Source of the DNA: a virus | Strand: one strand, 5' to 3' | IMG/VR virus record: IMGVR_UViG_3300043466_000541 | Location: 1 to 25,325 of that record | Length of the DNA stretch: 25,325 bases | In this document: in pieces, positions 761 through 23,645 of the stretch | Layout of the letters: each line of letters begins with the position of its first letter | How positions within the stretch are numbered: position 1 is the first letter of the stretch | Notes under the pieces: generated by a model | What the model saw: only the letters and a program-made list of their open reading frames with translations | Told to the model about the DNA's origin: nothing | Databases searched by the model: none | Position numbers and translations under genes: made by a program

Positions 761-761
761 A

Positions 762-4808: not shown

Positions 4809-4810
4809 AA

Positions 4811-6266: not shown

Positions 6267-6888
6267 CTACAGAAATTTGAGTATTAAGTAAAGTATTTAA
6301 TTTAGGTATTACCATTTTAGTAATAGTATCTTCCCAATGACCTTCAATAAAAATGTCTTCTTCTAAATCCCAACATGGTTTATTATCACAATCTAATATT
6401 GCACTTAATTCAGTGGGGTCAGCAGGTATATAACGTAATTTAATTTTTTCTAAACTAGGTTTATTAATAATAACAATACGTCTATTTATCCAAGTGTAGT
6501 AAATTTCTTTATTACTAAATTTTCTATGTTTAACATATTGAATTTCAGACGGTTTAATATAATTAAATGGTTTTATACCAGTTAATTCCCCAATAAATAA
6601 AAAATTAACTTCATCTTTAACTTCAATAGGAACAGGTATTTGATTAACAGTTGTTGGTAAATTACAACTTAAATCAATACCACAACATTCACTACTAGAT
6701 TTTAATTCTAATGGTTGGCAAAAACTAGCTGTTGAATTACTTGGAAACAACCCAGTTTTTTCATACTGCTGTCTTACTAAAGCTTGTCTAGCTGTAATAA
6801 TAAACCCTTTAATTATTAATTTTGTTGGATAGTCAAAAGGTTTTTTAGCTAAAGCAGCTAATGTGTCTACATATTTATTTAAATACAT
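6250..6888 (-). CDS. Ring / head-tail connector-type protein, Cys-rich (212 aa)
   Basis: Helical N-terminus (MYLNKYVDTLAALAKKPFDY, then a helix with ARQALVRQQYEK) followed by a beta-rich part with IYYTWINRRIVIINKPSLEK (about residues 129-148) and LRYIPADPTELSAIL. The 'hydrophobic strands, then YIPADPTE, then CDxxPCWDxEED, then a C-terminal helix' layout is one I associate with crassvirus ring proteins and T7 gp11-like adaptors. It has at least seven cysteines, including SECCGIDLSC (about 66-75) and LDCDNKPCW (about 165-173), which could bind metal or form disulfides. The start at 6888 overlaps the preceding 44-codon gene by 10 bases. Connector identity is inferred from motif layout and neighbours. 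Confidence 0.6.
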   Translation of the reverse strand: MYLNKYVDTLAALAKKPFDYPTKLIIKGFIITARQALVRQQYEKTGLFPSNSTASFCQPLELKSSSECCGIDLSCNLPTTVNQIPVPIEVKDEVNFLFIGELTGIKPFNYIKPSEIQYVKHRKFSNKEIYYTWINRRIVIINKPSLEKIKLRYIPADPTELSAILDCDNKPCWDLEEDIFIEGHWEDTITKMVIPKLNTLLNTQISVDAENN

Positions 6889-7013
6889 TTTATACTGTTA
6901 TTACTTGCATTTGTATTAATAGTGTCTATTAAACTTTCAAGTAAATTTATAGATTCTATTTTAAATTTTGAAACTTTACTTACTATTTGTTTTAATTTTT
7001 TTAATAGTGCCAT
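6879..7013 (-). CDS. Small basic protein of unknown function (44 aa)
   Basis: Short frame reading MALLKKLKQIVSKVSKFKIE and ending NNSIKCI before TAA. It fills an otherwise empty 129-base gap. Its ATG is 4 bases after the preceding stop (7018) and its 3' end overlaps the next ATG (6888) by 10 bases, exactly the packing of the other genes here, which is the main evidence that it is real. The N-terminal 20 residues could form an amphipathic, Lys-rich helix, followed by a Leu/Ile-rich segment. There is no signal peptide or full transmembrane segment. Lying between the lysis cassette and the ring genes, it could belong to either. No family was recognised. Confidence 0.55.
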   Translation of the reverse strand: MALLKKLKQIVSKVSKFKIESINLLESLIDTINTNASNNSIKCI

Positions 7014-7017
7014 AGTT

Positions 7018-7437
7018 TTATTTTGTAATTAATGCTATTAATATAATGGTTTCAATAGTAGCTACAGTACTAACAGTTATTATTAAACTTGTTAAAAAAT
7101 TTATTTTGTTATTCTTTTTTTCAACAGTTTTTTCTAAACTATTTTTTTTGTCTGTTAATACTTTATTAGTATTTTCTTGTTCTTTTATAATAAGTTTTTG
7201 GTTTATTGTTAAAGTATCTAACATTTTTATCTTTGCAGCAAATAAAACAGATAAAGAATCCTTTTGTTTTATTTCTTGTTCCATTTGATTATTTTTATTA
7301 TATACTAAATTCCAAATCTTTTTGTCATTATTTGATATATTGTTGGTATTTAAAGTAGGCTGACCAAAGGTTACTTCTATATAAACTGTCAGTAGCATTA
7401 CTATCCAAACTACCAATATTTTTACTTTTTTGTTCAT
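7018..7437 (-). CDS. Spanin-like protein: N-terminal signal/anchor, coiled coil, C-terminal membrane segment (139 aa)
   Basis: An N-terminal hydrophobic stretch (about residues 6-24, VKILVVWIVMLLTVYIE) ends in a possible signal-peptidase site near TFGQP. A long Lys/Glu/Asn-rich coiled-coil region follows (about 40-110), then a strongly hydrophobic C-terminal segment (about 113-137). The first 110 bases overlap the preceding 116-residue gene in another frame, like Rz/Rz1 spanin pairs. There is no lipobox cysteine, so it is not a standard o-spanin, and the C-terminal membrane segment recalls u-spanins, which however carry a lipobox. Position right after the putative endolysin supports a role in the last step of lysis. 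This function is inferred from topology and context; homology was not recognised. Confidence 0.6.
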   Translation of the reverse strand: MNKKVKILVVWIVMLLTVYIEVTFGQPTLNTNNISNNDKKIWNLVYNKNNQMEQEIKQKDSLSVLFAAKIKMLDTLTINQKLIIKEQENTNKVLTDKKNSLEKTVEKKNNKINFLTSLIITVSTVATIETIILIALITK

Positions 7438-7678
7438 AAATAAAAGTGTTATTTATAATTGTTTTTTGGTTTTTGACTATTTCATTAGTTAATGAATCTA
7501 TTTTAAGTTCTGTTTTTTTAACAGTTTCTTCTGCTTGTAACTGTATAGTAGATTTTAAAATATTTTTTTCTACCTCTAGTAATTTATTTTTATGGTAAAA
7601 ATAACCTAGTATACAAACAAAAAAAGTTGTTGTTATTAACAACAACCCTAATAAATAAATTATTCTATTGTTAACCAT
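7328..7678 (-). CDS. Inner-membrane spanin-like protein (Rz-type topology, 116 aa)
   Basis: A single N-terminal transmembrane segment (about residues 6-26, IIYLLGLLLITTTFFVCILG) is followed by a charged coiled-coil region (about 30-75, with heptad-like Leu/Ile spacing) and an Asn/Ser/Tyr-rich tail. This is the topology of i-spanins (Rz), which link inner and outer membranes and complete lysis in Gram-negative hosts. It overlaps the putative endolysin upstream by 19 bases and contains the start of the next membrane gene in a shifted frame within its last 110 bases. Length (116) is close to typical Rz proteins. Sequence similarity is not demonstrable by eye, so the call rests on topology and neighbours. 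Confidence 0.58.
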   Translation of the reverse strand: MVNNRIIYLLGLLLITTTFFVCILGYFYHKNKLLEVEKNILKSTIQLQAEETVKKTELKIDSLTNEIVKNQKTIINNTFIYEQKSKNIGSLDSNATDSLYRSNLWSAYFKYQQYIK

Positions 7679-8097
7679 ACTTTTTCTTTCTTTAAAGCTA
7701 GTTCAATATCTTTTTCTAATTTAGTTGCTGCTTTAGCACTATCACCAGCAAATCCATCAGAAGAATCTTCATAAGCTACACCAATACAACCTTCTACGTT
7801 TTTAGCTGTATTTGCAACATGAATACGAACACCTTCAAAACCTTTTACATTTACGATATAAGTCATAAATCTTTTAAATCTATTACTATAAGTCATAGTA
7901 ATTTCATACCTACCTTTAGGTATAGCTGTTTTTCCATGTACTTTAATTTTAGCAATTTCATTAAGTTGCATTGTTTGGTCTAACCCTCTATCAAAATCTT
8001 CAATAGAAAATGCAAAAAATTTACCGTTAACAAACCATTTACCGCCACAATAAAGTTTTTTTTCATTATTCCAAATACGTTTTACATTTAATTCCAT
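7660..8097 (-). CDS. DUF5675 family protein, putative endolysin (145 aa)
   Basis: Carries the motifs I associate with the DUF5675 family: HGKTAIPKGRYEITMTYS (residues 54-71), GFEGVRIHVANTAKNVEGC (86-104) with a His and a Cys (H93, C104), and CIGVAYEDSSDG after it. The His...GC arrangement resembles an L,D-transpeptidase-like active site, and genes of this family often sit in phage lysis regions of Bacteroidota phages. The family length is about 130-150 residues, so the gene looks complete. There is no signal peptide, so release would need a holin, consistent with the small membrane proteins encoded just upstream. Peptidoglycan cleavage is an inference; the catalytic mechanism of the family is, to my knowledge, not established. 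Confidence 0.72.
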   Translation of the reverse strand: MELNVKRIWNNEKKLYCGGKWFVNGKFFAFSIEDFDRGLDQTMQLNEIAKIKVHGKTAIPKGRYEITMTYSNRFKRFMTYIVNVKGFEGVRIHVANTAKNVEGCIGVAYEDSSDGFAGDSAKAATKLEKDIELALKKEKVWLTIE

Positions 8098-8101
8098 ATT
8101 A

Positions 8102-8410
8102 TTATTCTTTAATTTCTTTATAATTTAAATCGTTATTACCAATTTCTGTTGTAGTTGTTTTAGTAGTATTTTCTATTGTAGACCTTCCAAATAAATAAGT
8201 TAAAACAATAGGCATCTGAACACCTACAAATAATAAAATATTATTAATAGAATTTTTATCAATCCATTTAATAAAGTAAGTTATACCAGAAATAACAGTT
8301 AAAAATATTAAAGATGCAGCATACCAAAAACAAATAAATAATCCTACTGAAGATTTACCGTTTTTGTTTGAAGTAGCTTCTTTCCAATTAAATTTTGAAA
8401 AATCAAACAT
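8102..8410 (-). CDS. Holin-like small membrane protein, two transmembrane segments (102 aa)
   Basis: Two predicted membrane helices (about residues 22-46 and 56-74) are separated by a short charged turn (KWIDKNSINN). The N-terminus is charged and soluble, and the C-terminal 25 residues are polar and Thr/Asn/Glu-rich. Size and topology fit a class II-type phage holin. Its ATG overlaps the stop of the upstream gene as TAATG (8410), and its stop is 4 bases before the DUF5675 gene, giving a compact order: coiled-coil membrane protein, holin-like protein, endolysin, spanin-like pair. The holin role is inferred from topology and position only; it could be another membrane accessory protein. Confidence 0.6.
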   Translation of the reverse strand: MFDFSKFNWKEATSNKNGKSSVGLFICFWYAASLIFLTVISGITYFIKWIDKNSINNILLFVGVQMPIVLTYLFGRSTIENTTKTTTTEIGNNDLNYKEIKE

Positions 8411-8802
8411 TATTTAGTATTTTTTAAAAAATTAACAATTTGCATTATAAAGTATAATGCACCTATTACAATACCTACAATTGTAGTAATGCCAGCCCAA
8501 GAACCTATAATAAAAGCTTTTTTTTCTTTAATAATATTTAAAAATGATTCAACTCGTTTAAATCTTGCAAAAAGAGAATTTTCGTTGTCTAAATCATTAC
8601 CTACTAAAGTAAATAATAAATTATCTAGTTTTTTATCTAATTTACTATAATTTGTTTTAGCATCTACAGAATTATTTATTAATTCTGAATAAATACTTTT
8701 AATTTGTGTTGAAACATTGTTTTTAAAATTTTCTAGTTCAGGCTGAAGTTTTTTATAAACTTCATCAACTATTTCTTGTTTTTCATGTTTAGTTAATGGC
8801 AT
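8410..8802 (-). CDS. Coiled-coil protein with C-terminal membrane anchor, lysis-associated (130 aa)
   Basis: Residues 1-95 are charged and helical with coiled-coil character (KHEKQEIVDEVYKKLQPELE near the start). A single strong membrane segment follows (about 96-121, Ile/Gly/Ala-rich), then a short basic end. This resembles the layout of XhlA-type haemolysin/holin-accessory proteins, though it is longer and I see no convincing sequence match. It is translationally coupled to the downstream holin-like gene by a TAATG overlap, which suggests that the two products act together at the inner membrane. A holin partner or antiholin is the best guess. Confidence 0.5.
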   Translation of the reverse strand: MPLTKHEKQEIVDEVYKKLQPELENFKNNVSTQIKSIYSELINNSVDAKTNYSKLDKKLDNLLFTLVGNDLDNENSLFARFKRVESFLNIIKEKKAFIIGSWAGITTIVGIVIGALYFIMQIVNFLKNTK

Positions 8803-8822
8803 TATAACAATTGTTTTAATGA

Positions 8823-9305
8823 TTAAAATAAATACCCTTTTAATTCTTCTTTTGTAAATTCGTCAATAGTATTAAGTATTTTTTCTTCTTTACAAATAAC
8901 AGGTTCAAACCATACTTTTTTACTTTCTAGTGAAGTGTTAGATTTTTCAACAAGTTCATGAAGTTTACGTGAACGTATTTTACCTTGTTCTTTATTTGTA
9001 TTTGGAATATTATCTGTGTAAGTTAATAATCCATCTTTATTTTCAACAGCAGTTTCAAAAAAAAGTTCTTCTTTTTCTTTTTCAAAATTACTTGAATTGT
9101 CTTTAATTTCTTTTTCTGTAGCTAAATTATATTGTTGTAAAAACTTTTTAACAAAATAAGTTTTTTTATCTTTTATTTCGTTTTCAATTTTATCTGTACC
9201 TATAATAGAGATAACTAATTGTTTTTTACTAGCTAAGGTTTTAATATCTATTTCAAAACCATTTTTACTTTTTGTGTTTTCTTGTTTTTGTGAGTTACTT
9301 GACAT
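8823..9305 (-). CDS. Hypothetical charged protein (160 aa)
   Basis: Lys/Glu/Asn-rich soluble protein with no membrane segment, signal peptide or recognised motif. The N-terminal 20 residues are polar and probably disordered (many Ser/Gln/Asn/Lys). The middle contains a helix with KKTYFVKKFLQQYNLATEKE (about residues 47-66), and the C-terminus ends DEFTKEELKGYLF, which could be a short capping helix. It is the first gene of the lysis block, 20 bases before the coiled-coil membrane gene and downstream of the only AT-rich spacer in this part of the window (9306-9375). It may be a lysis-timing or virion accessory protein, but no function can be assigned. Confidence 0.45.
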   Translation of the reverse strand: MSSNSQKQENTKSKNGFEIDIKTLASKKQLVISIIGTDKIENEIKDKKTYFVKKFLQQYNLATEKEIKDNSSNFEKEKEELFFETAVENKDGLLTYTDNIPNTNKEQGKIRSRKLHELVEKSNTSLESKKVWFEPVICKEEKILNTIDEFTKEELKGYLF

Positions 9306-9329
9306 AAAATTTTAATTAAGGTTAAATTT

Positions 9330-9360
9330 AAAAAAATGCTAATTTACAAAAAAAAATTAG
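9330..9360 (-). terminator. Possible weak intrinsic terminator between adhesin and lysis genes
   Basis: In the 70-base spacer 9306-9375, CTAATTT (9354-9360, minus strand) can pair with AAATTAG (9339-9345) around an 8-base loop. Two bases later comes a run of seven T (9330-9336) on the transcribed strand. The stem is only 7 base pairs with a single G-C pair, so it would be weak, and the same pairing may arise by chance in such AT-rich DNA. Confidence 0.3.
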
Positions 9361-9375
9361 TAAAAACCAAATTTT

Positions 9376-9636
9376 TTATGAATTTTCAATTAATTTTCTT
9401 TCTAAGTTTAAAAAATTTAATACTAAATTTTCTACATACACATTATTAGCACCCCATGCTTCAAATTCATCTTTTGTTAGGTAATAAGTACCTTCTGCTA
9501 TTTGTTTACCTTCGGCTGTTTTTAACACCCAATAAGTACCAGTAGTTGTTGCATCTGTTGTAAATCCATGGACTGTTACTTGTAACTGTTCGGCTGTACC
9601 TAGTACACCTAAACTTGTTGGTTTGATTGTTATCAT
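9376..9636 (-). CDS. Small tail-associated protein of unknown function (86 aa)
   Basis: Compact protein beginning MITIKPTSLGVLGTAEQLQV, with a Thr-rich hydrophobic core (VHGFTTDATTTGTYWVL, about residues 22-38) and a C-terminal helix (VYVENLVLNFLNLERK, about 67-82). The 'TTTGTYWVLKTxEGKQIAEGxYYLT' pattern is one I have seen in small proteins encoded next to fibre and adhesin genes of Bacteroidota phages, without a known role. It follows the concanavalin-fold adhesin gene by 11 bases. It is possibly a small structural or chaperone partner of the fibre; the function is unproven. Confidence 0.55.
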   Translation of the reverse strand: MITIKPTSLGVLGTAEQLQVTVHGFTTDATTTGTYWVLKTAEGKQIAEGTYYLTKDEFEAWGANNVYVENLVLNFLNLERKLIENS

Positions 9637-9647
9637 GTTTTATTGTT

Positions 9648-10526
9648 TTAAATTATTGTGATTCCATAAAATTGCCCTTGGTTACGTTCAATTGTTTGTC
9701 GGTTGGTGGTGGAGAGGACGGAGGGGAACGAAATCAATTCTGATACAGTGCCTTCAAATGTGAGCAATGATGCAGTTCCATTCAACGAACCTATAGCACT
9801 ATTAACCCCCGTATAGAGGCTCGTAATTGTTGCGCTTTCCCATTGTGTGCCGTTCTTAAACAGTTTCCACTGCTCGCTTCCGGTGGTTGATATAGATGTG
9901 ATTAAAGTGGGTGTATTTGAAATAGCAACATCTGCGGCTAAACCGTTGGTTCCGTTGCCTCCTGTCGCTGCAATGTTGGCTACGTTTAAGAACCCAGCCG
10001 AAATAGGTCCAGCCGAATTTTGGTTTGCAATAATGTAAAAACGGTCAGTTTGCCCAGAAGACCACTGCCCAAAAACAGTCCCGAATTCATTTTCAATCTT
10101 CGGTGTGAACAGAATAAACAAACTGTGCGTTGTGTTAATAAGCGGAGAAGGGGCAGCTAAATAATCATCTATGCCGTCAAAGCGCAGCGTGGGCCGTCCG
10201 TTTTCCGTCTGTATCGCACCATTGCTAACAATTTGCGGCTGCGATCCTGCCGTGGCTTGAGTTGCATTGCGACCATTGCCCGATTGGTCGTACCACGTTG
10301 TTACAAAGCCATTATTACCAACACCTACAAATGCTAGCAAAGTTACAGTATCTAAATCACCACTTGCTGTAAAGCCAATATCCTGAGTGGCACTGTCGCT
10401 ACTTCTTCTTACATTAATAGCTGCACCTAAGTATTCAGTACGAAGTTTTCGTAAACTATACGCAGCAGCACTATTTAAGCCGTCAAGTATTAATCTCGAT
10501 GAAAAAAAGAAAGCGTTACCAAACAT
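9648..10526 (-). CDS. Concanavalin/LamG-fold, arabinofuranosidase-like tail adhesin (292 aa)
   Basis: The N-terminal half carries AAYSLRKLRTEYLGAAINVR (about residues 21-40), then GFTASGDLDTVTLLAFVG and TWYDQSGNGRNATQATAGSQ (about 77-96). These resemble the start of the catalytic-domain fold of alpha-L-arabinofuranosidase B (a concanavalin-type beta sandwich). RPTLRFDGIDDYL (110-122) then begins a LamG-like sugar-binding sandwich. At 292 residues it is far shorter than the enzymes, and I could not place catalytic residues, so binding of surface glycans is more likely than hydrolysis. It lies 3 bases downstream of the large fibre gene. Its G+C is much higher than that of the genes around it (31 of 60 bases in 10201-10260), pointing to acquisition or exchange. 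Host-receptor binding is inferred. Confidence 0.65.
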   Translation of the reverse strand: MFGNAFFFSSRLILDGLNSAAAYSLRKLRTEYLGAAINVRRSSDSATQDIGFTASGDLDTVTLLAFVGVGNNGFVTTWYDQSGNGRNATQATAGSQPQIVSNGAIQTENGRPTLRFDGIDDYLAAPSPLINTTHSLFILFTPKIENEFGTVFGQWSSGQTDRFYIIANQNSAGPISAGFLNVANIAATGGNGTNGLAADVAISNTPTLITSISTTGSEQWKLFKNGTQWESATITSLYTGVNSAIGSLNGTASLLTFEGTVSELISFPSVLSTTNRQTIERNQGQFYGITII

Positions 10527-10529
10527 ATG

Positions 10530-13500
10530 TTATGCAAAATTTCGTGAAACAGATATTAGAAATTGAGTCCCATCCCATAGTACCGCAATAACGTCTTTTC
10601 TATTTGCAGTTCCAACGTAAACATTTCCACCTCCATTAGCTTGAATTGTTCCTGTTGGGAAGATTAAATTTCTAGGAGTTGCACCATTAGTTACTTCTAT
10701 TAAAGGGCAAATAGCGTTTTGCGCATTCAATAATGTGAGAGTAACGTTTCCAGTTGCCGAACTTAATACAAGGTCAACTATGCTTCCGTTATTCCAATCT
10801 ATTGTTTGCGTTGTTCCAGTAGGTGTTAGTGTTTGTTTTGTTGTGCTTATTTGTGCAGCTCTAAGAGTTCCACTAATTCTAGCACTACCACCAATAATAA
10901 AATGTTCTCCACTATTAACCGCCCCATTAGTTATAATTTGACCATTTGTTTGTAGCACCATACCACCACCACCACTTGCTTCTATTGTTAAATTATGTGA
11001 AGAATTAATCAGCGCACCACCACCCTGATTTAAAGCAGTCATTCCTATTGTAACACCTGATTGAGATTTAGCTATATAACTAGCACTTGCAATTGAATTA
11101 GAACTAGTATTTTCTAAGTAAGAATACAACCCCAATGCTTTAGAATCTTGAATATGTAAATTATAAAGTGGACTTACTCCAATACCTACGTTATTACCAT
11201 TTTGAAACAACACACTATTTGCCACCGTACCTGCTCCAGTTGCTACGGGTAAATAACCAGTAGTTAGTGAGCCACCTATTTTAGCGTTCCAAATAGCTGC
11301 ACTTGAAATATAAGCATCTCCTATTGCTGTACCTTGCCATACACCAGTTCCAATAGTTCCTAAAGTAGTTATTGATAATTGCCCTACATAGGTAGAAGCA
11401 ATATCTATTATTGGTGTAGCACCTCCACTTGATGTTATTCTGTTAGTTGTTCCTGTAACACCTGTTACTGTTCCTACATTCCAGCTTCTATTTGCACTTA
11501 AATCAAATGCCGTTCCATTTATTGTTAATGTTCTTCCAGTTGGAACACCATCTAACCCTGCTAAAGTATAATTGGGTACATTTAATGTATCTCCTAAAAA
11601 AGTAGCTGCACCCGAAGTTCCTGTAGTTGTTAGTGTTATTGCATTTTGTTTATTAGTAAATGTAGTAAATGCACTAGATGACAAAACTCCATTTTGGCTT
11701 GCTGTTGCAACTCGTATATCAAGAAATTTATTACCAAAAAGGTCTGTATATACATACAAAGGTTCAGATAATTTACTAAAAGTAATTATGTTGGACAAAG
11801 ATATTGTTGTCCAATCTCCTGTTGAAATGTCTTTTCCTAACAATAAAGTGTCACCACTAATTCCCCCAAAAAATGGTAAAGGAGAACCTAACAACCCACT
11901 GACATTTGGACTTTGATATGTACCACTTAAATCACCACCAGCAGCTATTCCATTTATTGATGTTAGATAACTATTTGAATCAATACTTCCATCTGCTTTT
12001 AAGAATTGACTTGAAGTACCTCCTGACTTAACTAAAGTAGTTGCGTTTAACGTACCTATGATTGTTGCAGCGTTACCCGAACCACTTGTTTTGTTTATGT
12101 ATAAACCTTCTCCATTACCACTTTTAGTAATATTCAAAGCAATACCGCTACCACTTGAATGGGTAACGCTTAAAGTATTACCATTACCAGAACTTGTATA
12201 AGAACCTATTGTACCTGTAATAACATCTGCGGTCAAATCAAAAGTTCCTAAATCTACATTTGCAGTTGCCCCTGTATATGGAACTAATCCCGTTATACTT
12301 GGGAATGTTGCCAAGCTACCATCACCACGCACATATTGACTTGATGTACCTAATATTTTTTCCAACACTCCATTAGTATCGGCTGTTACTATTCGTGTAC
12401 CTGTTCCTGCTAAACTACCAACAGTAAGAGTACTATTAATTCTTGCACTACCATTAACCTGTAATCTATCTACTCCGTTATCGACTGTTGTTCCTATTAG
12501 TAGGTTACCAGTAGCTGCTAACGTCATTAAGTCGGGAAAGGTTGTTAAAACGTTACCTGCCGTTCCTGAAGGGGCGGTTCTCCAAGAATGGCGTCCACTT
12601 GCTTGATAATAGTTAGAAGCAGCATCAGATTTAATATATATCCAATTACTACCATTATAATATGCATTATATGTTAATTGCAAACTTATTAGAGAATCAA
12701 GAAAACTTGAATTACCAATTTGTAATGTTTTAACTCCACTCCACGCACTCGGTGTAACTCCTAATCCTAAATTGCCTGATACTTCTCGCAACACACTATT
12801 TGCCACCGTACCTGCTCCTGTTGCAACAGGTAAATATCCAGTAGTTAGTGAACCGCTTATGTAACCGCTTAACGCTGCACTTGTTATGAATCCGCTTGGG
12901 TTGCTGTTAGGGTAGTATGATGTTGAATCAATACTTCCATCTGCTTTTAAGAATTGACTTGAAGTACCTCCATTTTTAATAATCGAATTAGCAATCAAAT
13001 CATAACCACCTAAGTTTACATTTTGAGTTGCTCCTGTATATGGAACAAATCCACTACCAGTATTAGCAATTGTTGAAGATAATACACTCCAATTACTGTT
13101 ATTAAATGATATTATTTCTACTGATTGATTAGGTAATAAAACTAAAGAATTTATTGCAGAAATACCACCATCAAATTTATCTGCTCCACTTAATTGTATT
13201 GTTAAATTACCTGTGGACAGATTTAAATTACGAATAATAAATCTTTTACCTGCCCCAAAATTAGCTGTTGAGTGTACAGGTATTGTACATGTTCTATTTA
13301 TAGCAGCTAAATGAAAAGTAACAATATAATCATCTGCTGTTATAGTATAATTATCTATTTTACCTGTAAAACCTGATGTTGAATAACTACCTTTTAAATG
13401 TAATGTACTATTAATATCTGTTGAGTTTGTATTAAAATTACCAATACCTACTTTGTTATTATAAAAAGAAAGCATTTTATAATAAACTAAAGTAGTAGGA

Positions 13501-14318
13501 TTTCCATACCAAAAATCTAAACCTACATTTTGAGTATGTAATATATTACCCTTTTTCCAAAATTTAAGTTCTGCTGTATTAGCTACATCATCATAAGTAT
13601 TTTGTGCATATAACGATGAGTAATAAGAAAAAGATAAGCCATAAGCTGCTGTATCATTTATAAACCCATAATTTATAGAAGCGTTTTCACCTGCATTAGC
13701 GTTAGCTATACTAAAACTTAATTCATTATTTTTATCATGCGCTAAAAATAAATTACCAGCATTAAATTGATTATATCTTAAACTAGCAAAATTATCACCT
13801 AAATAAAAAGAATAACCATCTGTTGCAATAGTAGTATTTTCTGTTAAACTACCTCCTAGTTTAACATTAATAGTATCTAGTATTGTACCATTAGTAAAAT
13901 TGTATGAACTAAGTCCTGTTTGACCTCTTAAAACTTTTACAGTACTAGCATCTGAAAATAATATATCTGTATTACCAAATAAATCATAACTATATGAAAC
14001 TATTTCTATAGATTCTCCTGACTCTCCAATATCACCTTTATTCCCTTTATCTCCTTTTAAATTTGTGTAACTACCCCATGTATTATTAGGATTTTTAAAA
14101 CGTAAAAAAGTTCCAGACCATTCATGTTCTGGGGCTAATCCATTTTCACCACCATCTCCTTTATTTCCTTTATCTCCTTTTTTTACAATAACTGTATTAC
14201 CATCAGAAAATAATATTTCTGTATCTCCTAGTAATGTGTAAGAATAGCTTATAATATATATAGATTTTCCATCTAATCTATCTTCACCATTGTTAGAAGG
14301 TTTAGGTAAATCAAACAA
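10530..14318 (-). CDS. Large collagen-containing tail fibre (1262 aa from a TTG codon; 5' end interrupted by TAA)
   Basis: The N-terminal region has two similar modules (about residues 20-47 and 104-132: SYSYxLxGxTxILFSD plus TVxV) and two collagen-like Gly-X-Y stretches (47-60, GDKGNKGDGGENG; 88-103, KGDKGNKGDIGESGES). The middle is a Ser/Thr/Gly/Asn-rich beta-repeat fibre with recurring VPYTGATxNVxLG, SSQFLKADGSIDS and TTGYLPVATGAGTVANSVL motifs, common in long fibres of Bacteroidota phages. The last about 110 residues form a distinct Thr/Asn/Gly-rich tip. Host attachment is the expected role. The frame extends upstream to an ATG at 14390, but a TAA at 14343-14345 cuts that off. Between TAA and the TTG at 14318 there is no ATG, so TTG is only a possible restart; every other complete gene here starts with ATG. 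Confidence 0.75.
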   Translation of the reverse strand: MFDLPKPSNNGEDRLDGKSIYIISYSYTLLGDTEILFSDGNTVIVKKGDKGNKGDGGENGLAPEHEWSGTFLRFKNPNNTWGSYTNLKGDKGNKGDIGESGESIEIVSYSYDLFGNTDILFSDASTVKVLRGQTGLSSYNFTNGTILDTINVKLGGSLTENTTIATDGYSFYLGDNFASLRYNQFNAGNLFLAHDKNNELSFSIANANAGENASINYGFINDTAAYGLSFSYYSSLYAQNTYDDVANTAELKFWKKGNILHTQNVGLDFWYGNPTTLVYYKMLSFYNNKVGIGNFNTNSTDINSTLHLKGSYSTSGFTGKIDNYTITADDYIVTFHLAAINRTCTIPVHSTANFGAGKRFIIRNLNLSTGNLTIQLSGADKFDGGISAINSLVLLPNQSVEIISFNNSNWSVLSSTIANTGSGFVPYTGATQNVNLGGYDLIANSIIKNGGTSSQFLKADGSIDSTSYYPNSNPSGFITSAALSGYISGSLTTGYLPVATGAGTVANSVLREVSGNLGLGVTPSAWSGVKTLQIGNSSFLDSLISLQLTYNAYYNGSNWIYIKSDAASNYYQASGRHSWRTAPSGTAGNVLTTFPDLMTLAATGNLLIGTTVDNGVDRLQVNGSARINSTLTVGSLAGTGTRIVTADTNGVLEKILGTSSQYVRGDGSLATFPSITGLVPYTGATANVDLGTFDLTADVITGTIGSYTSSGNGNTLSVTHSSGSGIALNITKSGNGEGLYINKTSGSGNAATIIGTLNATTLVKSGGTSSQFLKADGSIDSNSYLTSINGIAAGGDLSGTYQSPNVSGLLGSPLPFFGGISGDTLLLGKDISTGDWTTISLSNIITFSKLSEPLYVYTDLFGNKFLDIRVATASQNGVLSSSAFTTFTNKQNAITLTTTGTSGAATFLGDTLNVPNYTLAGLDGVPTGRTLTINGTAFDLSANRSWNVGTVTGVTGTTNRITSSGGATPIIDIASTYVGQLSITTLGTIGTGVWQGTAIGDAYISSAAIWNAKIGGSLTTGYLPVATGAGTVANSVLFQNGNNVGIGVSPLYNLHIQDSKALGLYSYLENTSSNSIASASYIAKSQSGVTIGMTALNQGGGALINSSHNLTIEASGGGGMVLQTNGQIITNGAVNSGEHFIIGGSARISGTLRAAQISTTKQTLTPTGTTQTIDWNNGSIVDLVLSSATGNVTLTLLNAQNAICPLIEVTNGATPRNLIFPTGTIQANGGGNVYVGTANRKDVIAVLWDGTQFLISVSRNFA
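11208..11270 (-). repeat. Internal in-frame repeat A of the tail fibre, copy 1
   Basis: These 63 bases match 12789-12851 with four mismatches. The copies are 1581 bases (527 codons) apart, in frame, and encode TTGYLPVATGAGTVANSVL. It is near residues 1017-1037 of the fibre. Confidence 0.9.
11975..12023 (-). repeat. Internal in-frame repeat B of the tail fibre, copy 1
   Basis: 49 bases identical to 12923-12971, 948 bases (316 codons) apart and in frame, encoding GGTSSQFLKADGSIDS. A diverged third version (SSQYVRGDGSL) lies near 12325-12345. Confidence 0.9.
12789..12851 (-). repeat. Internal in-frame repeat A of the tail fibre, copy 2
   Basis: Partner of 11208-11270 (59 of 63 bases identical), near residues 490-510 of the fibre. 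Confidence 0.9.
12923..12971 (-). repeat. Internal in-frame repeat B of the tail fibre, copy 2
   Basis: Partner of 11975-12023, identical over 49 bases, near residues 450-465 of the fibre. Confidence 0.9.
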
Positions 14319-14342
14319 ATTATCGTAAGAAATTAAACCTAT

Positions 14343-14390
14343 TTAAGGTTTAGAATTTTTTGAATATTTACCAAATATATTAGTATTCAT
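14343..14390 (-). other. Interrupted 5' end of the tail fibre gene: 15 codons then in-frame TAA
   Basis: An ATG at 14390 overlaps the TAA of the upstream 90-residue gene (TAATG), the same coupling seen at 8410. It reads MNTNIFGKYSKNSKP, then TAA (14343-14345). The same frame continues without another stop as IGLISYDN and then directly into the 1262-residue fibre frame at 14318. The joined sequence looks like a continuous phage fibre N-terminus, and TAA is one base from AAA (Lys). The stretch is therefore best read as the true start of the fibre gene broken by a nonsense codon, unless this is a sequencing error or readthrough occurs. A free-standing 15-residue peptide is the alternative. Confidence 0.7.
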
Positions 14391-14662
14391 TATCTATTAT
14401 AAATTATAAATTTTATTCTATTAATCATTATATTAAATTCTTCTTGAGTAATATAATTGTTTTCTTTAGGCGTACCATCAAAATATTGTTCCCAATAATT
14501 TAATACCCATTGGTATAATGTTAATTCTTTTAGTACAGATTGTTTATCAAGACAAAATTCTGTAGCAAATCTTAAATTATTAAATTTATGTTCTCCTATA
14601 TTAGCATAATAATATACAAGGTCAGAATTAATTTGAATTAGTTCATCAACAGTTACAACCAT
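14390..14662 (-). CDS. Small protein of unknown function next to the tail fibre (90 aa)
   Basis: Predominantly helical, Tyr/Asn/Leu-rich protein without membrane segment. Visible features are an N-terminal helix (TVDELIQINSDLVYYYANIG, residues 4-23), a central aromatic helix (LTLYQWVLNYWEQYF) and an acidic/amphipathic end (QEEFNIMINRIKFIIYNR). Its start overlaps the end of the preceding gene by 17 bases, and its stop overlaps the fibre ATG as TAATG, so it is tightly coupled to fibre expression. A small structural adaptor or fibre-assembly protein is plausible; no family was recognised. Confidence 0.55.
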   Translation of the reverse strand: MVVTVDELIQINSDLVYYYANIGEHKFNNLRFATEFCLDKQSVLKELTLYQWVLNYWEQYFDGTPKENNYITQEEFNIMINRIKFIIYNR

Positions 14663-15536
14663 CAGATTTGCATATTTTTAAAAGTGTTTTTAAATTACTA
14701 TCAGCTTGAACATATAATTCAGCCTCTAGTTGAGCATCTACAATAAAAAGACCGTCTAAAACGTCTTTTAAAGCATCAATATCAGAACCTTTACATGTAC
14801 TACAACAAGATTTTTTTTGTATAGATGTTTTAGCTATTTTTGGTTGAAAACATTCTAATAATTCTACATCAGATTTTATGTAAACAGTAGTTTTATAACC
14901 AGCCATTATAATTACAGAAGAATTTTCAGGTATTAGCTCATTTAATATAGGTTTATTTAAATTAATTACTTTTGTATTTAAATAAGTATCTATATTAGTT
15001 ACAACATTAGTAACTACTTTAGCTTGAGATATTGGTACTGTAGTACTTGAATAAATTACTTTAATTAAATCAGTATCATATAAAAAACTATTTAAATTTA
15101 AATTTGTTGTACCAGCTACACTAATAGTAGTAGTAGTAAGTTTTTTACCTTGACCACTAGTTAAACCACTTAAAATATACCAAACATAATATTCTACTTT
15201 TATAATACCAACTGGTAAAACAGTATTAATACCTAATTCAAGGTTACTAATATCTACGGATACTACTGTTTTAGGCATTAAATTATTTTCATCTGTTGCT
15301 GAAATATTAATATCAACAGAATTAAAAGAAGCATTTTTATAAAAAGTATGCACAGTACCATTAGCCATTGTTATAACAATTTCTGTTACTGTATTATTTT
15401 TACTTCTATTAAGATTAGTTATTCCAGTAGAATATTTTTTACTACCTGCTAAATTATCTCCGCCAGTAACATCATTTATTGTAATAATTTTACCTGTTTT
15501 ATCTAATGTTCCTGTAGCAATTAATTCTAAAGCCAT
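14646..15536 (-). CDS. Structural/tail protein with Cys-rich C-terminus (296 aa)
   Basis: The first about 225 residues are beta-rich and Thr/Asn/Val-rich, with no charged clusters, typical of virion proteins (KIITINDVTGGDNLAGSKKY at about residues 16-35, VVSVDISNLELGINTVLPVG around 91-110). A Cys-rich tail follows: KKSCCSTCKGSD (about 241-252), a helix, and CKSDGCNC at the very end, seven cysteines that could bind metal or cross-link. It ends with the only TGA stop in the window, immediately followed by a second in-frame TGA, so readthrough is unlikely. It follows the 227-residue ring-type gene by one base and overlaps the next gene by 17. A tail or fibre-connecting protein is inferred from position. 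Confidence 0.55.
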   Translation of the reverse strand: MALELIATGTLDKTGKIITINDVTGGDNLAGSKKYSTGITNLNRSKNNTVTEIVITMANGTVHTFYKNASFNSVDINISATDENNLMPKTVVSVDISNLELGINTVLPVGIIKVEYYVWYILSGLTSGQGKKLTTTTISVAGTTNLNLNSFLYDTDLIKVIYSSTTVPISQAKVVTNVVTNIDTYLNTKVINLNKPILNELIPENSSVIIMAGYKTTVYIKSDVELLECFQPKIAKTSIQKKSCCSTCKGSDIDALKDVLDGLFIVDAQLEAELYVQADSNLKTLLKICKSDGCNC

Positions 15537-15537
15537 A

Positions 15538-16221
15538 TTATTGTTTTAATAATTGTATTTTATTTGGGTTTTGTTCTGCTATTATAGACATGTATATAAT
15601 AGCTGTTTTTATAATTTTAAAACATGTTTGGTCAGGAAATTGTAATACTGTACTACCATTATTACCAAAAGCTACTTTAGTAGGTTTAGATAGATAATCC
15701 ATATAAATAGCTTCTATATTAAACTGTTTTATGTTTTTATAAAAATTATAAACATATAAATTATTACCAGATAAATGAGAAATAGGGCTTTCTTGACTAG
15801 TTTTAAATATTGAGTTTTCTAATATCGTTTTTATATCTTCTGTTTCTGTTAATCTGTTAGGTACTTCTCTTGTAATATCACAATTTAATGGTTTTACTAA
15901 AGTACTGTCGTTTAACAAATGCCTGTAATTTTCAGGTAATGTTATGTAACTAACAGGATAACTACCTATAGTAGTTGTTAATAAAGTATTAGTATTTCCT
16001 AATACTTCTAATATTTTTAAATCATCAATAGATGCTTGTACATCTTGATATTTTTCTGGTTTTTGTACTGCATATTTATCAGGAAAAGCTAATTGAATAA
16101 ATAAATCCGTACAATAATTCCAATTGTAATCTAGTTCTTGTAATTGCACATTTGCATAAGCAAAGGATGCAATTGCTTGCACCCCTTGCTGTATGTAAAT
16201 ATACGCTTCTTTAACTGTCAT
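15538..16221 (-). CDS. Head-tail adaptor / ring-type protein (227 aa)
   Basis: A helical N-terminus (MTVKEAYIYIQQGVQAIASF, then a second helix with YCTDLFIQLAFPDKY) leads into a beta-rich region containing VSYITLPENYRHLLNDSTLV (about residues 89-108). Next comes the pattern IYMDYLSKPTKVAF (about 173-186), FPDQTCFKIIKTAIIYMSII, and a short tail. The layout 'YxTLPENYRHL ... YxxxPxxV ... FPDxxCxxIIxxAI' is what I recall for connector or ring proteins that sit below the portal in crassviruses and related podoviruses. Position between the head genes and tail genes agrees. The stop lies one base before the next start, implying coupling. The exact ring tier is unknown. Confidence 0.65.
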   Translation of the reverse strand: MTVKEAYIYIQQGVQAIASFAYANVQLQELDYNWNYCTDLFIQLAFPDKYAVQKPEKYQDVQASIDDLKILEVLGNTNTLLTTTIGSYPVSYITLPENYRHLLNDSTLVKPLNCDITREVPNRLTETEDIKTILENSIFKTSQESPISHLSGNNLYVYNFYKNIKQFNIEAIYMDYLSKPTKVAFGNNGSTVLQFPDQTCFKIIKTAIIYMSIIAEQNPNKIQLLKQ

Positions 16222-16230
16222 TAGTTAAGA

Positions 16231-17553
16231 TTAAAAATTAATAATAGCGTTTGGAGCTAATTTTTTCAAAACAGCTTCAAAAGTAGTAACGGCAGTCCAT
16301 GTAGTAGGTACAGCAATTTGAATTGCTGAATTATCTCCTTTATTATGTTCTACACCACTTTCAGTAGTAGTATTGCGGAATAAGATACTGTAGATATTGT
16401 AATTAGTATCTGCATTAGCAAAACGAGGAAGTTGTTTCATCCATTTGCTGAAAGTATCAAACTGACCTCTATAAGCAATAAGACCTTCTTCAATTTTAAC
16501 AATTTCTGCACCAGTACCTAATCCTTGACTTGGATTAACTGTGTAAGTTACAGTAGCGTTTTCAATAACACCTTGTTTAGCATAATTAAATACTGAATTA
16601 GGGCTAATTGTAGTTAGCTGTAATCCAAATTCTGTAGAAGCTGCTTGAGTAGCAAATACTGGAGAAGCTCCACCATTACCATCTAAACGAGTTGCTGTAG
16701 TAGTAACACCTTCATAAGGGTTATCTAAAGTAATAGTCATTACATTTGCAGCAATGTTAGGAGTACCAACAACTTTGTAAGTTACACCACCAATAGTAAT
16801 TAAACTACCGGCTGCAATTGTAGTAGCTGTTAAAGTTGTTGAAGTAATTGTTACTGTTTTACTACCGTTTGTAGCTGTACCTAATTGTACAGCAGCAGCA
16901 CCAGTACCAGTAATTGAACCTCCAATTGCAATTGTAGTTCTAGCACCATTAGCTAAAATTTCAGCAATATGTGTTCTTACAACTCCAATATTAGCAACAC
17001 TATTAATTGCATTTGCAAGTTGTACTAAAATGTCATAAGCAGCTGTAGAAGGGGCTAATGTTGCAGTATTAAATTGCAATTGTTCTCTAATCTGGTCATT
17101 TGTAGAAACTTCTTGTTGAACAGCTAACAAAGTAGCTGAATCATTTTGTACGATAGTAGGTAAATTTAAAGAACCGCTTGTACCATTGTAACCAATTACA
17201 GCCACACCTTGTACAGGAGCAGTATAAGCTTGTTTAATAATACGTGTAATTCCTTTACATTGAATATCACCTGTTTGAACAGGTGTTTCAGTGTAACCTT
17301 GTACAATACGGAATAATGAACCACCACCTGTTATAAAATCATCTACATGACATAGACCTGCTGAAGAAGTTCCATTAGTTAGTAATGTAAAACGATTGTT
17401 GTTAGCTGCGGTAGTTGCATCAATTTCAACTAATCCGTAAATACCAACTGCTCCACTTGCTAAATTTTCTGTGTTAGTACCAGTTAAAGTAGTACTAGAA
17501 GTTTTAGATGGTGCATAGGCTTGGTTGCCTGTAAAGATTAAGATTTTTTTCAT
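16231..17553 (-). CDS. Thr/Ala/Gly-rich major structural protein candidate (440 aa)
   Basis: Begins MKKILIFTGNQAYAPSKTSS and continues with low-charge, Thr/Ala/Gly/Asn-rich sequence of beta character through a central domain (TTIAIGGSITGTGAAAVQLG, around residue 205-224). It ends in a mixed region (EGLIAYRGQFDTFSKWMKQL) and a C-terminal segment ending PNAIINF. Composition and local G+C are those of an abundant, well-expressed virion protein. Its place shortly after the capsid gene suggests a capsid decoration, head-fibre or auxiliary capsid protein; a tail-tube subunit is the main alternative. I do not recognise a named family with confidence. Confidence 0.55.
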   Translation of the reverse strand: MKKILIFTGNQAYAPSKTSSTTLTGTNTENLASGAVGIYGLVEIDATTAANNNRFTLLTNGTSSAGLCHVDDFITGGGSLFRIVQGYTETPVQTGDIQCKGITRIIKQAYTAPVQGVAVIGYNGTSGSLNLPTIVQNDSATLLAVQQEVSTNDQIREQLQFNTATLAPSTAAYDILVQLANAINSVANIGVVRTHIAEILANGARTTIAIGGSITGTGAAAVQLGTATNGSKTVTITSTTLTATTIAAGSLITIGGVTYKVVGTPNIAANVMTITLDNPYEGVTTTATRLDGNGGASPVFATQAASTEFGLQLTTISPNSVFNYAKQGVIENATVTYTVNPSQGLGTGAEIVKIEEGLIAYRGQFDTFSKWMKQLPRFANADTNYNIYSILFRNTTTESGVEHNKGDNSAIQIAVPTTWTAVTTFEAVLKKLAPNAIINF

Positions 17554-17584
17554 TGTTTTGTTTTATTAGATTGTTTATTTGTTT

Positions 17585-18535
17585 TTACTTTTTAAGTAAA
17601 ATATCTTTTAATCTAGCTTTTAGTTTTGATACTTCTCCAGAATTAGTTTGGTCATTTAAATAAGTAATTGCTTCTTTATACGCACCAATTTGTTTATTAT
17701 CTAGGAAATATGTTCCACCTTCTAGTGTTATTAATCTTGTTTGAGTTAATCTATATAATAAAGCTTTTACTTCCAATAAGTCATCGTTGTATTTTGTAAC
17801 AAATTCAACAGGTTTTTGGTTAGCTATTTCTTTAAGGCGCATTAATTTATCTGTTAAATCTACATTGTAGAATAATTCATGGTCTTCTTTTAATAAGTCT
17901 AACATGTATTCTACTTTTTCAGTTTTACCAGTTTCTTTTACTAAAGTAACTAATTCAACATATTTAGCATCTGCTATAGATATTTGGTCAAATTTCTTAC
18001 GACTTTCTGCTTTAGCTACAGATAAATCATTCATAATGAATTTAAACAAATCTGGATTATCACGTTCTTCTGGTAAGAAAGCTACTCCATTAGATTGTTT
18101 TGCAAATTCAGCTTTAATATACTGGTCTAAATATTTAGGTTTTTTAATAAATATTTCTTCACCATCTAATTTAACTTTTTCTTCAGTGTAAGAAGCATCT
18201 AAAATTAAACCTCTTTCTGGTACAGCTAAAGTAAATTCTGCCCAAAAAGTTGTCATTGCATCATCAAATCCTAAATCTTTAGGATTTTTATTAATTAATT
18301 GAGAAGAATAAAATCGTTCTTGATTTGTATCTAATCCTCTAATAATTGCGGTAGTAGTATAACCGTTAATAACTTTATATTGAGAACTTATATTACCTTT
18401 GTAATATGAACTATCTCGCAGTTGTTTAGGGAGAGGATGATAATCATCCTCTCTCCTATTAACTGTGATTTTATAGATTTGTTCAACTGTTTTTATTTCA
18501 GTTGGTTTTTCTTGTTGTTTAGCTATTGCTTCCAT
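17585..18535 (-). CDS. Conserved head-module protein of unknown function (316 aa)
   Basis: Lys/Glu/Asp/Leu-rich soluble protein, with a mixed N-terminal half (QIYKITVNRREDDYHPLPKQ, about residues 19-38) and a mainly helical C-terminal half. The C-terminus includes LITLEGGTYFLDNKQIGAYK (about 268-287) and ends in a Lys/Leu helix. The GGxYFxxNKxxGxxxEAIxYL pattern is one I recall from uncharacterised proteins just downstream of capsid genes in Bacteroidota phages. A -7-type promoter sequence lies 49 bases before the start at the end of the capsid gene. It may help capsid completion or head-tail joining; the function is unknown. Confidence 0.5.
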   Translation of the reverse strand: MEAIAKQQEKPTEIKTVEQIYKITVNRREDDYHPLPKQLRDSSYYKGNISSQYKVINGYTTTAIIRGLDTNQERFYSSQLINKNPKDLGFDDAMTTFWAEFTLAVPERGLILDASYTEEKVKLDGEEIFIKKPKYLDQYIKAEFAKQSNGVAFLPEERDNPDLFKFIMNDLSVAKAESRKKFDQISIADAKYVELVTLVKETGKTEKVEYMLDLLKEDHELFYNVDLTDKLMRLKEIANQKPVEFVTKYNDDLLEVKALLYRLTQTRLITLEGGTYFLDNKQIGAYKEAITYLNDQTNSGEVSKLKARLKDILLKK

Positions 18536-18583
18536 TTTTATTTTATTAAGTTTAAGTTGAAATTTATTTTATTTGGATTTTTA

Positions 18584-18591
18584 CAAAGCTA
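18584..18591 (-). promoter_or_regulatory. Possible Bacteroidota -7 element downstream of the capsid gene
   Basis: TAGCTTTG on the minus strand matches the TAnnTTTG -7 consensus perfectly, 1 base after the capsid stop codon and 48 bases before the next ATG (18535). The -33 position is poor (no TTTG 19-21 bases upstream), so activity is doubtful. Confidence 0.3.
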
Positions 18592-18592
18592 C

Positions 18593-20107
18593 TTATTGAC
18601 CAAGATTACATAACAATTTGAAACAAGATGATGGGCGTTTAATTTGAATACCACCTGTTCTTACATTTTCAATACTTGTTGCATCTCTATCAGTAGCACG
18701 ATAAACTGTTTCTGGGTAACCCATTGGGGTATAAACACCCGGAACTACAAAGTTAATGTTCTCAGCACCATCTTGAACAATATATTGAAGATTAGCTTCT
18801 CCTTGATATACTGTTTGGTCTATAAAGTAGAAGTGATGTGAACAAATTGGTAATCCTGAAACTGGATGTTTAGGTTGACCTTCTGCATATACACCTCTAT
18901 CAAACATTGGATGATAATGTACTGTTAACATTTGACCATCAATATGACGGAATGAACTAAAGAACGAACCGTAAACCATATCCCAAGTATTTTCTCCTTT
19001 AGAGAATTGTCTACTATCAATAAGTTGAGTAAATCCTTTTAACTCATTTTTAATCATTTTATCAAATCCTTCCATACCACCTTTACCTGTGTAAACGTGA
19101 ATATCAGATACTTCATCTGTAATGTTAAAAGTAACATCACGAACCATGTTAAAGAACTTGTTATAGGTCAATATTGAGTAAGTATCAATATTACTTGTAG
19201 GAATTTGTTGGTCAATACCAGCTCCAGATGTAATTGGAATAGATGTTTCATTATCTACTGTATAAAATTCACCTGTATTTGATTTTGCGTATTGCGACCA
19301 CCAAATATCATGTTCACGAGCCTCATTAAAATATAACATTGACATGTACAATTCATAATCCATATAAGATTTGAATAGTTTACCATCAATAGGAATATGA
19401 AAACGCATTACTTTTTTAGCAAGATTTCCTTTGTATTTGTAAGAATTACGATGCATGCTAATCATGTTAGTAGCCATACTAGGCATTTGTGAACGTGATT
19501 CAGTTCCTTTTGAACCTTCAAAAGGTACTTTAGCAACACCACCAGTCCAAACACTACCTTGCGCTAAACAGCTAAGTGGCATATATAAACCAGAAGTGCC
19601 TGCAAAGATTTTAACAGTATATTCCCAACCATCTGATACTGGAATAGGGTCTTCTTGTACACGACATTGTAGTTGCGCTCTATTAATTGTAGGTGGGTAC
19701 AATGTTTGTTGGCGATAAAACCATCTATCTGCAAACACAATTTTAAAAATACTTCCACCTAAACCTGGTCTATCACCAGCAGTATAATAGCTTCTTACTA
19801 CTAAAGAAGATTTTTTAGGTGCGCCCATTACTGGATATTTATATTCAAAGTTAGCATCATCAAGTTTTACTTTGGTAATAGTTTTAGCTTTACCTTCAAT
19901 ACCTGCTTTGCTTCCTTCTGTGTAAGCTAGAATAGGAAAGTTTTTCTTACCATATTCTTTGTCATTGTAAATCATGTGAGTTACAATAGGAGTTAACAAT
20001 GTAGCTTCTGACTGCATTGCTCTTGATAGTTCAGTAATAGAACTGTAGTCTTTATCTTTATATGTATCTTGATAAAGCTTCAACTCTGGTTTAATTTTTC
20101 CACTCAT
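18593..20107 (-). CDS. Major capsid protein, HK97-fold type (504 aa)
   Basis: Length (504) and position (after portal and scaffold) fit crassvirus major capsid proteins. The N-terminus MSGKIKPELKLYQDTYKDKD precedes an Ala/Met helix and TPIVTHMIYNDKEYGKKNFP (about residues 39-58). The pattern GGSIFKIVFADRWFYRQQTL followed by RVQEDPIPVSDGWEYTVKIF (about 149-168) matches my memory of the capsid's extended-loop and axial domains. There is no signal peptide, membrane segment or protease site cluster; crassvirus capsid proteins are assembled without a visible fused scaffold. The leader upstream of the ATG is A/T-rich without a Shine-Dalgarno sequence, as is usual in Bacteroidota. Capsid identity is well supported by context, while the fold is inferred. 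Confidence 0.78.
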   Translation of the reverse strand: MSGKIKPELKLYQDTYKDKDYSSITELSRAMQSEATLLTPIVTHMIYNDKEYGKKNFPILAYTEGSKAGIEGKAKTITKVKLDDANFEYKYPVMGAPKKSSLVVRSYYTAGDRPGLGGSIFKIVFADRWFYRQQTLYPPTINRAQLQCRVQEDPIPVSDGWEYTVKIFAGTSGLYMPLSCLAQGSVWTGGVAKVPFEGSKGTESRSQMPSMATNMISMHRNSYKYKGNLAKKVMRFHIPIDGKLFKSYMDYELYMSMLYFNEAREHDIWWSQYAKSNTGEFYTVDNETSIPITSGAGIDQQIPTSNIDTYSILTYNKFFNMVRDVTFNITDEVSDIHVYTGKGGMEGFDKMIKNELKGFTQLIDSRQFSKGENTWDMVYGSFFSSFRHIDGQMLTVHYHPMFDRGVYAEGQPKHPVSGLPICSHHFYFIDQTVYQGEANLQYIVQDGAENINFVVPGVYTPMGYPETVYRATDRDATSIENVRTGGIQIKRPSSCFKLLCNLGQ

Positions 20108-20137
20108 GTTGTTTATTTATTTAGTTGTTTATAGTTA

Positions 20138-21214
20138 TTAGGTTTGTTTATTACCTAGTTTTCTTTTTAATTCTTCAAAAGACATTTCTGGAATATCTTT
20201 AGAATCACCTGCTTTACCAGCTAATGCTGGTTTTCTATTTCCACTAGATGCTGCAACTACTTGTTTTTTTTCTACACCTTTGATATTAAAATCTTTATAA
20301 AGCATATATTCAATAAGTAATTGTGTTTCTGTATCTAATTTATTCCATTTTTCTTCACGGTCTTTTGAAAAAAGATATTTGTTAAAAGTAGTTCTTTCTG
20401 TTTCAGGTATAATTAATCTATTTGCTAATTTACCTGTTTTAATAATTTCATTAACTTCTTTTATTTCTTTATCTCTAAGTTCTTGTTCTGTTTTAGCTTT
20501 TACCGCTTCTTGTTTTGCAATAGCATCAGCATTTTGTTTTACACTCTGCTTAATTTTTTCTTGAAAATCTTTAGATTCAGTTAATAATTCATCATCATCT
20601 TTTAATTGTTCAATAATTGCATCAAGTTTTTTACCTTTAATTCCTTGTTGTTCATACACTGAACGAACAAATTTTTCATGCCCTTCAATATCATCATCAG
20701 AAATTTCAATTGTAAAAGCTTCAGCTTCTTTTTGAGCTTTCCAACTAGCTACTGATTTACCTTCTTTTTTCCATTCAGAAAGACTTTTAATGTCTTCATC
20801 CTCTTCTAAGATTTGAGCTGCTATTTCTTTAACTTTTTTAACATCTCTAATTTCGTAAAACTTTTTAATTGCTTCAACAGAGTTGTCTTTTAAATCTAGT
20901 TCTTTAAAATCATCATCATCTTCGTAACCGTAATTAGTTAATAAAGTTTTTAATGTAGATGGTTCATCTTCATCTTCATCTTTATCTTCATCATCATCGT
21001 TGTTAGAATCGTTGTTAAATGCAAAATTTAAATCTTTAGATGTTGATGATTCTTCATCCCAAGATAAATCAGTACCATCAGGTTCATCATTAGTTGCATT
21101 GTTAGTTGCATTGTTACTAGGCGCATCAGGGGTTTTTTCTGGGTCTTCCAGATTAAACTTTTGGTTCATCATTTCAGCCATTTCGTCTGAAACAAAAATT
21201 TGTGGTTCTACCAT
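20138..21214 (-). CDS. Acidic scaffold-like protein (358 aa)
   Basis: Highly acidic N-terminal third (residues about 17-95), with a NNATNNATN repeat and an unbroken run of Asp/Glu (DDDEDKDEDEDE, around 72-83), probably disordered. Charged helical and coiled-coil regions follow (about 105-275). The C-terminal part is more basic and ends in a helix (MSFEELKRKLGNKQT). Acidic disordered, coiled-coil centre and short basic C-terminal helix is the usual layout of phage internal scaffolds, and the gene lies exactly between portal and capsid genes. A promoter-like element stands 43 bases upstream. No protease motif was seen. Scaffold is inferred from layout and position; sequence homology was not recognised. 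Confidence 0.6.
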   Translation of the reverse strand: MVEPQIFVSDEMAEMMNQKFNLEDPEKTPDAPSNNATNNATNDEPDGTDLSWDEESSTSKDLNFAFNNDSNNDDDEDKDEDEDEPSTLKTLLTNYGYEDDDDFKELDLKDNSVEAIKKFYEIRDVKKVKEIAAQILEEDEDIKSLSEWKKEGKSVASWKAQKEAEAFTIEISDDDIEGHEKFVRSVYEQQGIKGKKLDAIIEQLKDDDELLTESKDFQEKIKQSVKQNADAIAKQEAVKAKTEQELRDKEIKEVNEIIKTGKLANRLIIPETERTTFNKYLFSKDREEKWNKLDTETQLLIEYMLYKDFNIKGVEKKQVVAASSGNRKPALAGKAGDSKDIPEMSFEELKRKLGNKQT

Positions 21215-21257
21215 AATTATTAAATTTAAGTTGTGTGTATTTATTTAAAACCGAATA

Positions 21258-21290
21258 CAAATTTACACAATTTACAACAGTTATTTTAAA
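21258..21290 (-). promoter_or_regulatory. Bacteroidota-type promoter ahead of the scaffold-capsid genes
   Basis: On the minus strand TTTA (21287-21290, three of four matches to the -33 TTTG) is followed by 21 bases and TAAATTTG (21258-21265), a perfect match to the -7 consensus TAnnTTTG. Transcription would start near 21250 and leave a leader of about 35 bases before the ATG at 21214. It lies in the longest gene-free stretch of the window (21215-21320) and could give extra transcription of the most abundant virion proteins. Confidence 0.5.
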
Positions 21291-21315
21291 CTATTTTAAG
21301 TGTATTAATTGTGTA
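21264..21315. repeat. 9-bp inverted repeat spanning the capsid-operon promoter
   Basis: TACACAATT (21264-21272) and AATTGTGTA (21307-21315) on the plus strand are perfect inverted copies 34 bases apart. One arm overlaps the -7 element by two bases and the other lies upstream of the -33 position, so it could be a divided operator. TGTAAATT also occurs twice in tandem next to the -7 element on the minus strand. Confidence 0.4.
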
Positions 21316-21320
21316 TAGAT

Positions 21321-23639: not shown

Positions 23640-23645
23640 TGTATT

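Follow-up and report, generated by a model that had tools for sequence, protein, structure and literature searches.

The stretch of DNA analysed here (the window, 25,325 bases) carries a tail-fibre gene on its minus strand, interrupted near its 5' end by an in-frame stop codon (Table 1). Genes assigned to a portal protein (phrog_6547) and a terminase (phrog_6681) were found at 21321–25283, beside the capsid gene; all three matched head-and-packaging PHROGs. On the basis of its predicted major capsid protein, the source phage is typed as crAss-like (Crassvirales), with the putative portal and large terminase genes adjoining the capsid gene. A tblastn search with the capsid protein matched 96 GenBank phage records, all at less than 60% identity; the 15 matches listed showed 27–29% identity, were nearly all crAss-like by name, and included records of 91–99 kb. 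Genomes of crAss-like phages are typically near 90–100 kb. One scan of the genome collection returned no relative of the capsid protein, and the upstream 296-aa protein had no match among GenBank phages. The region of the fibre around the stop likewise had no GenBank phage match: 30 records matched the fibre query, all within residues 85–159 and none covering 80% of it.

Table 1. Features of the window discussed in the text, with their positions.
Feature	Position	Strand	Remarks
Crass-like major capsid protein	18593..20107	(-)	PF23898 (Crass_capsid), E 4.6e-55; phrog_11589, E 1.1e-68
90-aa ORF directly upstream of the fibre	14390..14662	(-)	orthologues directly upstream of a fibre-like gene in L025–L027 and L029
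Tail-fibre gene	10530..14390	(-)	native frame of 1286 codons, predicted from ATG 14390; internal TAA at codon 16
In-frame TAA, fibre codon 16	14343..14345	(-)	CAA (Gln16) in G001 and G002
TTG, first common start codon after the TAA	14316..14318	(-)	native-frame codon 25; start not conserved
Second private difference	14277..14279	(-)	AGA (Arg) in the window; GGA (Gly) in G001 and G002
Virion-associated protein (292 aa), gene next downstream of the fibre gene	9648..10526	(-)	phrog_10356, E 4.8e-36; partial PF09206 match, E 1.4e-7

The fibre protein contains collagen-like GDKGNKG stretches and repeated shaft modules, and it matched a tail-protein family among the PHROGs (phrog_29134, E 3.7e-9). 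The initial annotation had placed an ATG in frame with the fibre, in a TAATG overlap with the upstream stop, and had read codon 16 as TAA. All of this was confirmed on the minus strand: the ATG occupies 14390–14388 and overlaps the stop of the 90-aa ORF, codons 1–15 encode MNTNIFGKYSKNSKP, and the TAA follows at 14345–14343. Beyond it, the frame stays open until its terminal stop. When ATG, GTG, and TTG were allowed as starts, an open frame of 1262 aa was obtained from TTG 14318, and the next in-frame ATG after the stop was located only at codon 306 (13475), in agreement with the earlier statement that the 1262-residue frame has no ATG and is offered a TTG. As had also been noted, the other genes start with ATG; this was true of the 21 other window genes counted, and TAA terminates 21 of the 22 genes. 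For this count, genes were chosen from the ORF list; the start of the gene at 23646–25283 may lie beyond the window, while the ORF at 2–772, which runs off the low end, was left out.

A scan in which the variable base was given as N recovered two contigs only, although the tool may omit records that are very near to the window. The first, IMGVR_UViG_3300043436_003696 (G001, 90,098 bases), contains the whole window in two pieces. Window positions 1–9880 equal bases 1–9880 of G001 at 100%, and positions 9667–25325 correspond to bases 70855–86513 with 8 mismatches. The segment 9667–9880 is thus present twice in G001, and six of the eight mismatches fall at 9687–9753, where the copy at the start of G001 agrees with the window. 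Compared with the best-matching copies, the window therefore differs from G001 at two positions over 25,325 bases, namely 14345, where the TAA of the window is CAA (Gln) in G001, and 14279. The two sites are 66 nt apart and both changes are G:C-to-A:T. The second contig, IMGVR_UViG_3300044640_000822 (G002), is 99.3% identical to the window over 12,443 bases and agrees with G001 at both sites; the window states at 14345 and 14279 are thus the derived ones. Among the 142 codons that differ between the window and G002 over the aligned parts, a single difference is nonsense, the TAA at codon 16. From the same ATG, the fibre is open for 1286 codons in G001 and for 1489 in G002. Among the sequences found, the TAA is derived and private to the window sequence. 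The initial annotation had proposed that homologues might carry AAA or another sense codon in place of the TAA; a sense codon was indeed found, but it was CAA rather than the suggested AAA.

Five distant capsid relatives (L025 to L029) reach the fibre region. In four of them (L025, L026, L027, and L029), a matching fibre N-terminal part was found, and its ATG either overlaps the end of the orthologue of the 90-aa ORF, as in L025–L027, or lies 3 bases after it. No matching fibre N-terminus follows the 90-aa ORF orthologue in L028, and this sequence was left out of the fibre alignment. The capsid protein of L029 is 75% identical to that of the window; its fibre begins MKFNIFGKTNKNSTPQ, with Gln at residue 16, and recognisably retains the upstream residues (NIFGK..KNS.PQ). 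The N-terminus is shorter in L025–L027, where residue 16 corresponds to Glu in L026 and L027 and to a gap in L025. All six aligned fibre N-termini (G001, G002, L025, L026, L027, and L029) lack the stop; of these, L026 and L027 are alike and hence not independent. The Gly changed at the second private site belongs to a GEDG motif that is also present in L025–L027 and missing in L029, although the exact alignment there is ambiguous. Among the other sequences, L023 ends just after the capsid gene and offers no fibre for comparison, L004–L007 match only an inner part of the fibre and not its N-terminus, and a scan with the capsid alignment added one short contig (L033), which was used only in the tmRNA search described below.

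Since both sides of the stop form one open protein in G001 and G002, the first 15 codons belong to the fibre gene, as the initial annotation had suspected from the continuity of the reading. These comparisons support the view that the stop represents more than a chance layout of ORFs and that a single continuous protein is interrupted. The native fibre start is best placed at ATG 14390, and TTG 14318 is not a conserved start. In this record the gene should accordingly be annotated as interrupted, with its start at ATG 14390, and not as a 1262-aa protein from the TTG; unusual translation need not be invoked.

The results are very probably explained by a native start at ATG 14390, one continuous protein, and a derived C-to-T change (CAA, Gln16, to TAA) in this one assembled sequence, and not by an expression signal. 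The overlap of the fibre start with the end of the 90-aa ORF suggests that translation of the two may be coupled. The change itself may be a consensus error, or it may stem from a damaged or defective template in a presumably thinly covered patch, with damage to one molecule as a candidate source of both changes. We consider such an error or defective template somewhat likelier than otherwise, with a true null allele that segregates among the phages as a lesser, though appreciable, possibility. The lean toward the former is based on the occurrence of two clustered changes, one of them breaking a large structural gene, in otherwise identical DNA. When pairs of G:C-to-A:T changes were placed at random in the window genes as a null model, the two fell within 66 nt of each other in 0.6% of draws, and they did so with a stop and no synonymous change in 0.07%; a single change of this type makes a stop in 7.5% of cases. 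These figures were computed after the pattern had been seen and serve only as a guide. Points against the preferred explanation include the small number of close relatives found (two) and a possible mis-join near the end of G001. The latter caveat does not touch the fibre N-terminus, because G002 gives the same answer there.

The alternative of a true nonsense allele, in which a fibre-null or fibre-low phage segregates in the population and is perhaps maintained because phages in mixed infections complement it or because adsorption is under selection, has a lesser but appreciable probability. Real-looking strain variation occurs near the stop, within the central part of the fibre and in the next gene, the other counted window genes are open, and the rest of the window equals G001. 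In a study of p-crAssphage, tail fibre proteins were enriched for nonsynonymous variation (PMC6962324), and fibre-gene variability of this kind in crAss-like phages could put two true changes in the fibre gene; selection acting on fibre genes is a reasonable objection to the error reading. Against this, a large structural protein should be lost when its gene stops at codon 16 and offers no further ATG until codon 306, and the same study reports a deficit of nonsense sites, relative to expectation, in p-crAssphage from mothers (PMC6962324). The second change 66 nt away is also easier to understand as a local error, though selection could cluster changes as well. If the change is real, the expected product would be a 15-residue peptide and little or no fibre, with a presumable effect on the phage. 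If, in addition, the allele were common as well as real, losing the fibre would be indicated as a strategy of this uncultured crAss-like phage; nothing in the present data requires that.

Several readings give the stop a role in expression. A true allele might be kept beside the intact one while residual translation, whether from inefficient termination after Pro15 or from a restart at TTG 14318, yields a phage with little fibre, which gives up adsorption in exchange for something else; we regard this as very unlikely. Slightly less credit still is given to the proposal that readthrough of the TAA or re-initiation at the TTG, an option raised in the initial annotation, is a real, selected mechanism of low-level fibre expression. 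Such a mechanism could draw on the 1262 codons open from the TTG, nine codons past the stop, and on the Pro at codon 15, since in E. coli termination is slower when Pro precedes the stop. Yet it would need a shared stop, and the stop is not shared: it occurs in none of the six aligned homologous N-termini, G001 lacks it while being otherwise identical, and the G001 pieces yielded no tRNA and therefore no suppressor tRNA. Selected readthrough or re-initiation is thus without support, and it is largely refuted already by the sense codon in G001 and G002.

That TTG 14318 is itself the native start, with the 15 codons upstream open by chance, is more doubtful again. TTG is a legal start in bacteria and gives the 1262-aa ORF, but G001 and G002 are open from the ATG, L029 keeps the upstream residues, the ATG of L025–L027 overlaps the end of the 90-aa ORF orthologue, and ATG begins each of the other genes counted. 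The initial annotation had envisaged homologues that all begin at the equivalent of the TTG; the relatives instead start at the upstream ATG. The TTG was thus rejected as the native start on the open fibre of G001 and the N-termini of L025–L027 and L029.

Reading of TAA as an amino acid, as occurs for TAG or TGA in some crAss-like phages, has a negligible probability: stop recoding in crAss-like phages, according to PMC12386605, concerns TGA and TAG and involves suppressor tRNAs, whereas TAA is the main stop here, ending 75 of the 101 ATG ORFs of at least 60 aa kept in the G001 pieces as well as nearly all window genes, and tRNA searches of the window and, with ARAGORN, of five pieces that together cover G001 found none (a gene cut at a piece join would be missed). 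A code change with a suppressor tRNA was rejected on these grounds, in line with the earlier judgement that TAA is the main stop and reassignment unlikely. A diversity-generating retroelement was also considered as the mutagen and is unlikely to be the source of the change, because no reverse transcriptase (PF00078) was matched in the records of L001 (G001), L029, and L003, a search whose control matched in 3 of 14 named genomes; moreover, both changes are G:C-to-A:T and lie at the N-terminus.

Overall, the case looks ordinary, namely a one-letter change or a sequencing error. It resembles the sporadic nonsense changes or consensus errors of metagenome-assembled phage genomes, in which one derived base change breaks one gene while close relatives are intact, and differs from them in nothing apart from the second private change. 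With the nonsynonymous fibre variation described for crAss-like phages in PMC6962324, it shares the fibre gene and variation among close relatives; it differs in that the change is a stop, known from one assembled sequence. The stop recoding covered in PMC12386605 is similar in that an in-frame stop lies in a structural gene of a crAss-like phage, but there TGA or TAG is affected in many genes with suppressor tRNAs, and here a single TAA, the main stop, is involved.

Comparison of the fibre genes revealed a further difference between the relatives. The middle of the fibre, at window positions 12414–12882, is swapped for a longer segment in G002 (469 versus 1078 bases), giving the fibres of 1286 and 1489 codons. 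Two copies of a 49-base sequence lie in the window fibre, at 11975–12023 and 12923–12971, and could let cassettes recombine.

At the end of G001, after the 292-aa gene and the second copy of 9667–9880, 3,585 bases of other sequence follow (L014:16015–19599, G001:86514–90098). This segment, which may be foreign, matched neither the window nor the remaining sequence of G001, nor the compared parts of G002 and G003. Its G+C content is 0.33–0.38 per 600 bases, above that of most of the window outside the fibre region, and one of its ORFs matches a DNA methyltransferase PHROG. The end of G001 may reflect a mis-join at the 292-aa gene or a different arrangement. A third contig, G003 (L017:1–3436), aligned with window positions 7458–10890 and has in common the C-terminal part of the fibre and the downstream genes, while its capsid belongs to another family (phrog_752). 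No mismatches were found up to about 9750, after which the sequences diverge; the pattern could mean that unlike phages recently exchanged the fibre and lysis module, or that the contig is chimeric.

In addition, G001 appears to encode a tmRNA, at L032:3871–4220 on the minus strand (G001:54871–55220). The match to Rfam RF00023 scored 82.4 bits (cut-off 47; E 2.6e-30), in a search whose control matched all 14 named genomes, archaea included, and exceeded the cut-off in nine. ARAGORN predicted the tag AKTEKVALAA. A tmRNA was found in one of the 12 records searched, the other 11 comprising nine of 7–41 kb and two of 86 and 108 kb. The occurrence of a tmRNA in a crAss-like phage may merit separate attention.
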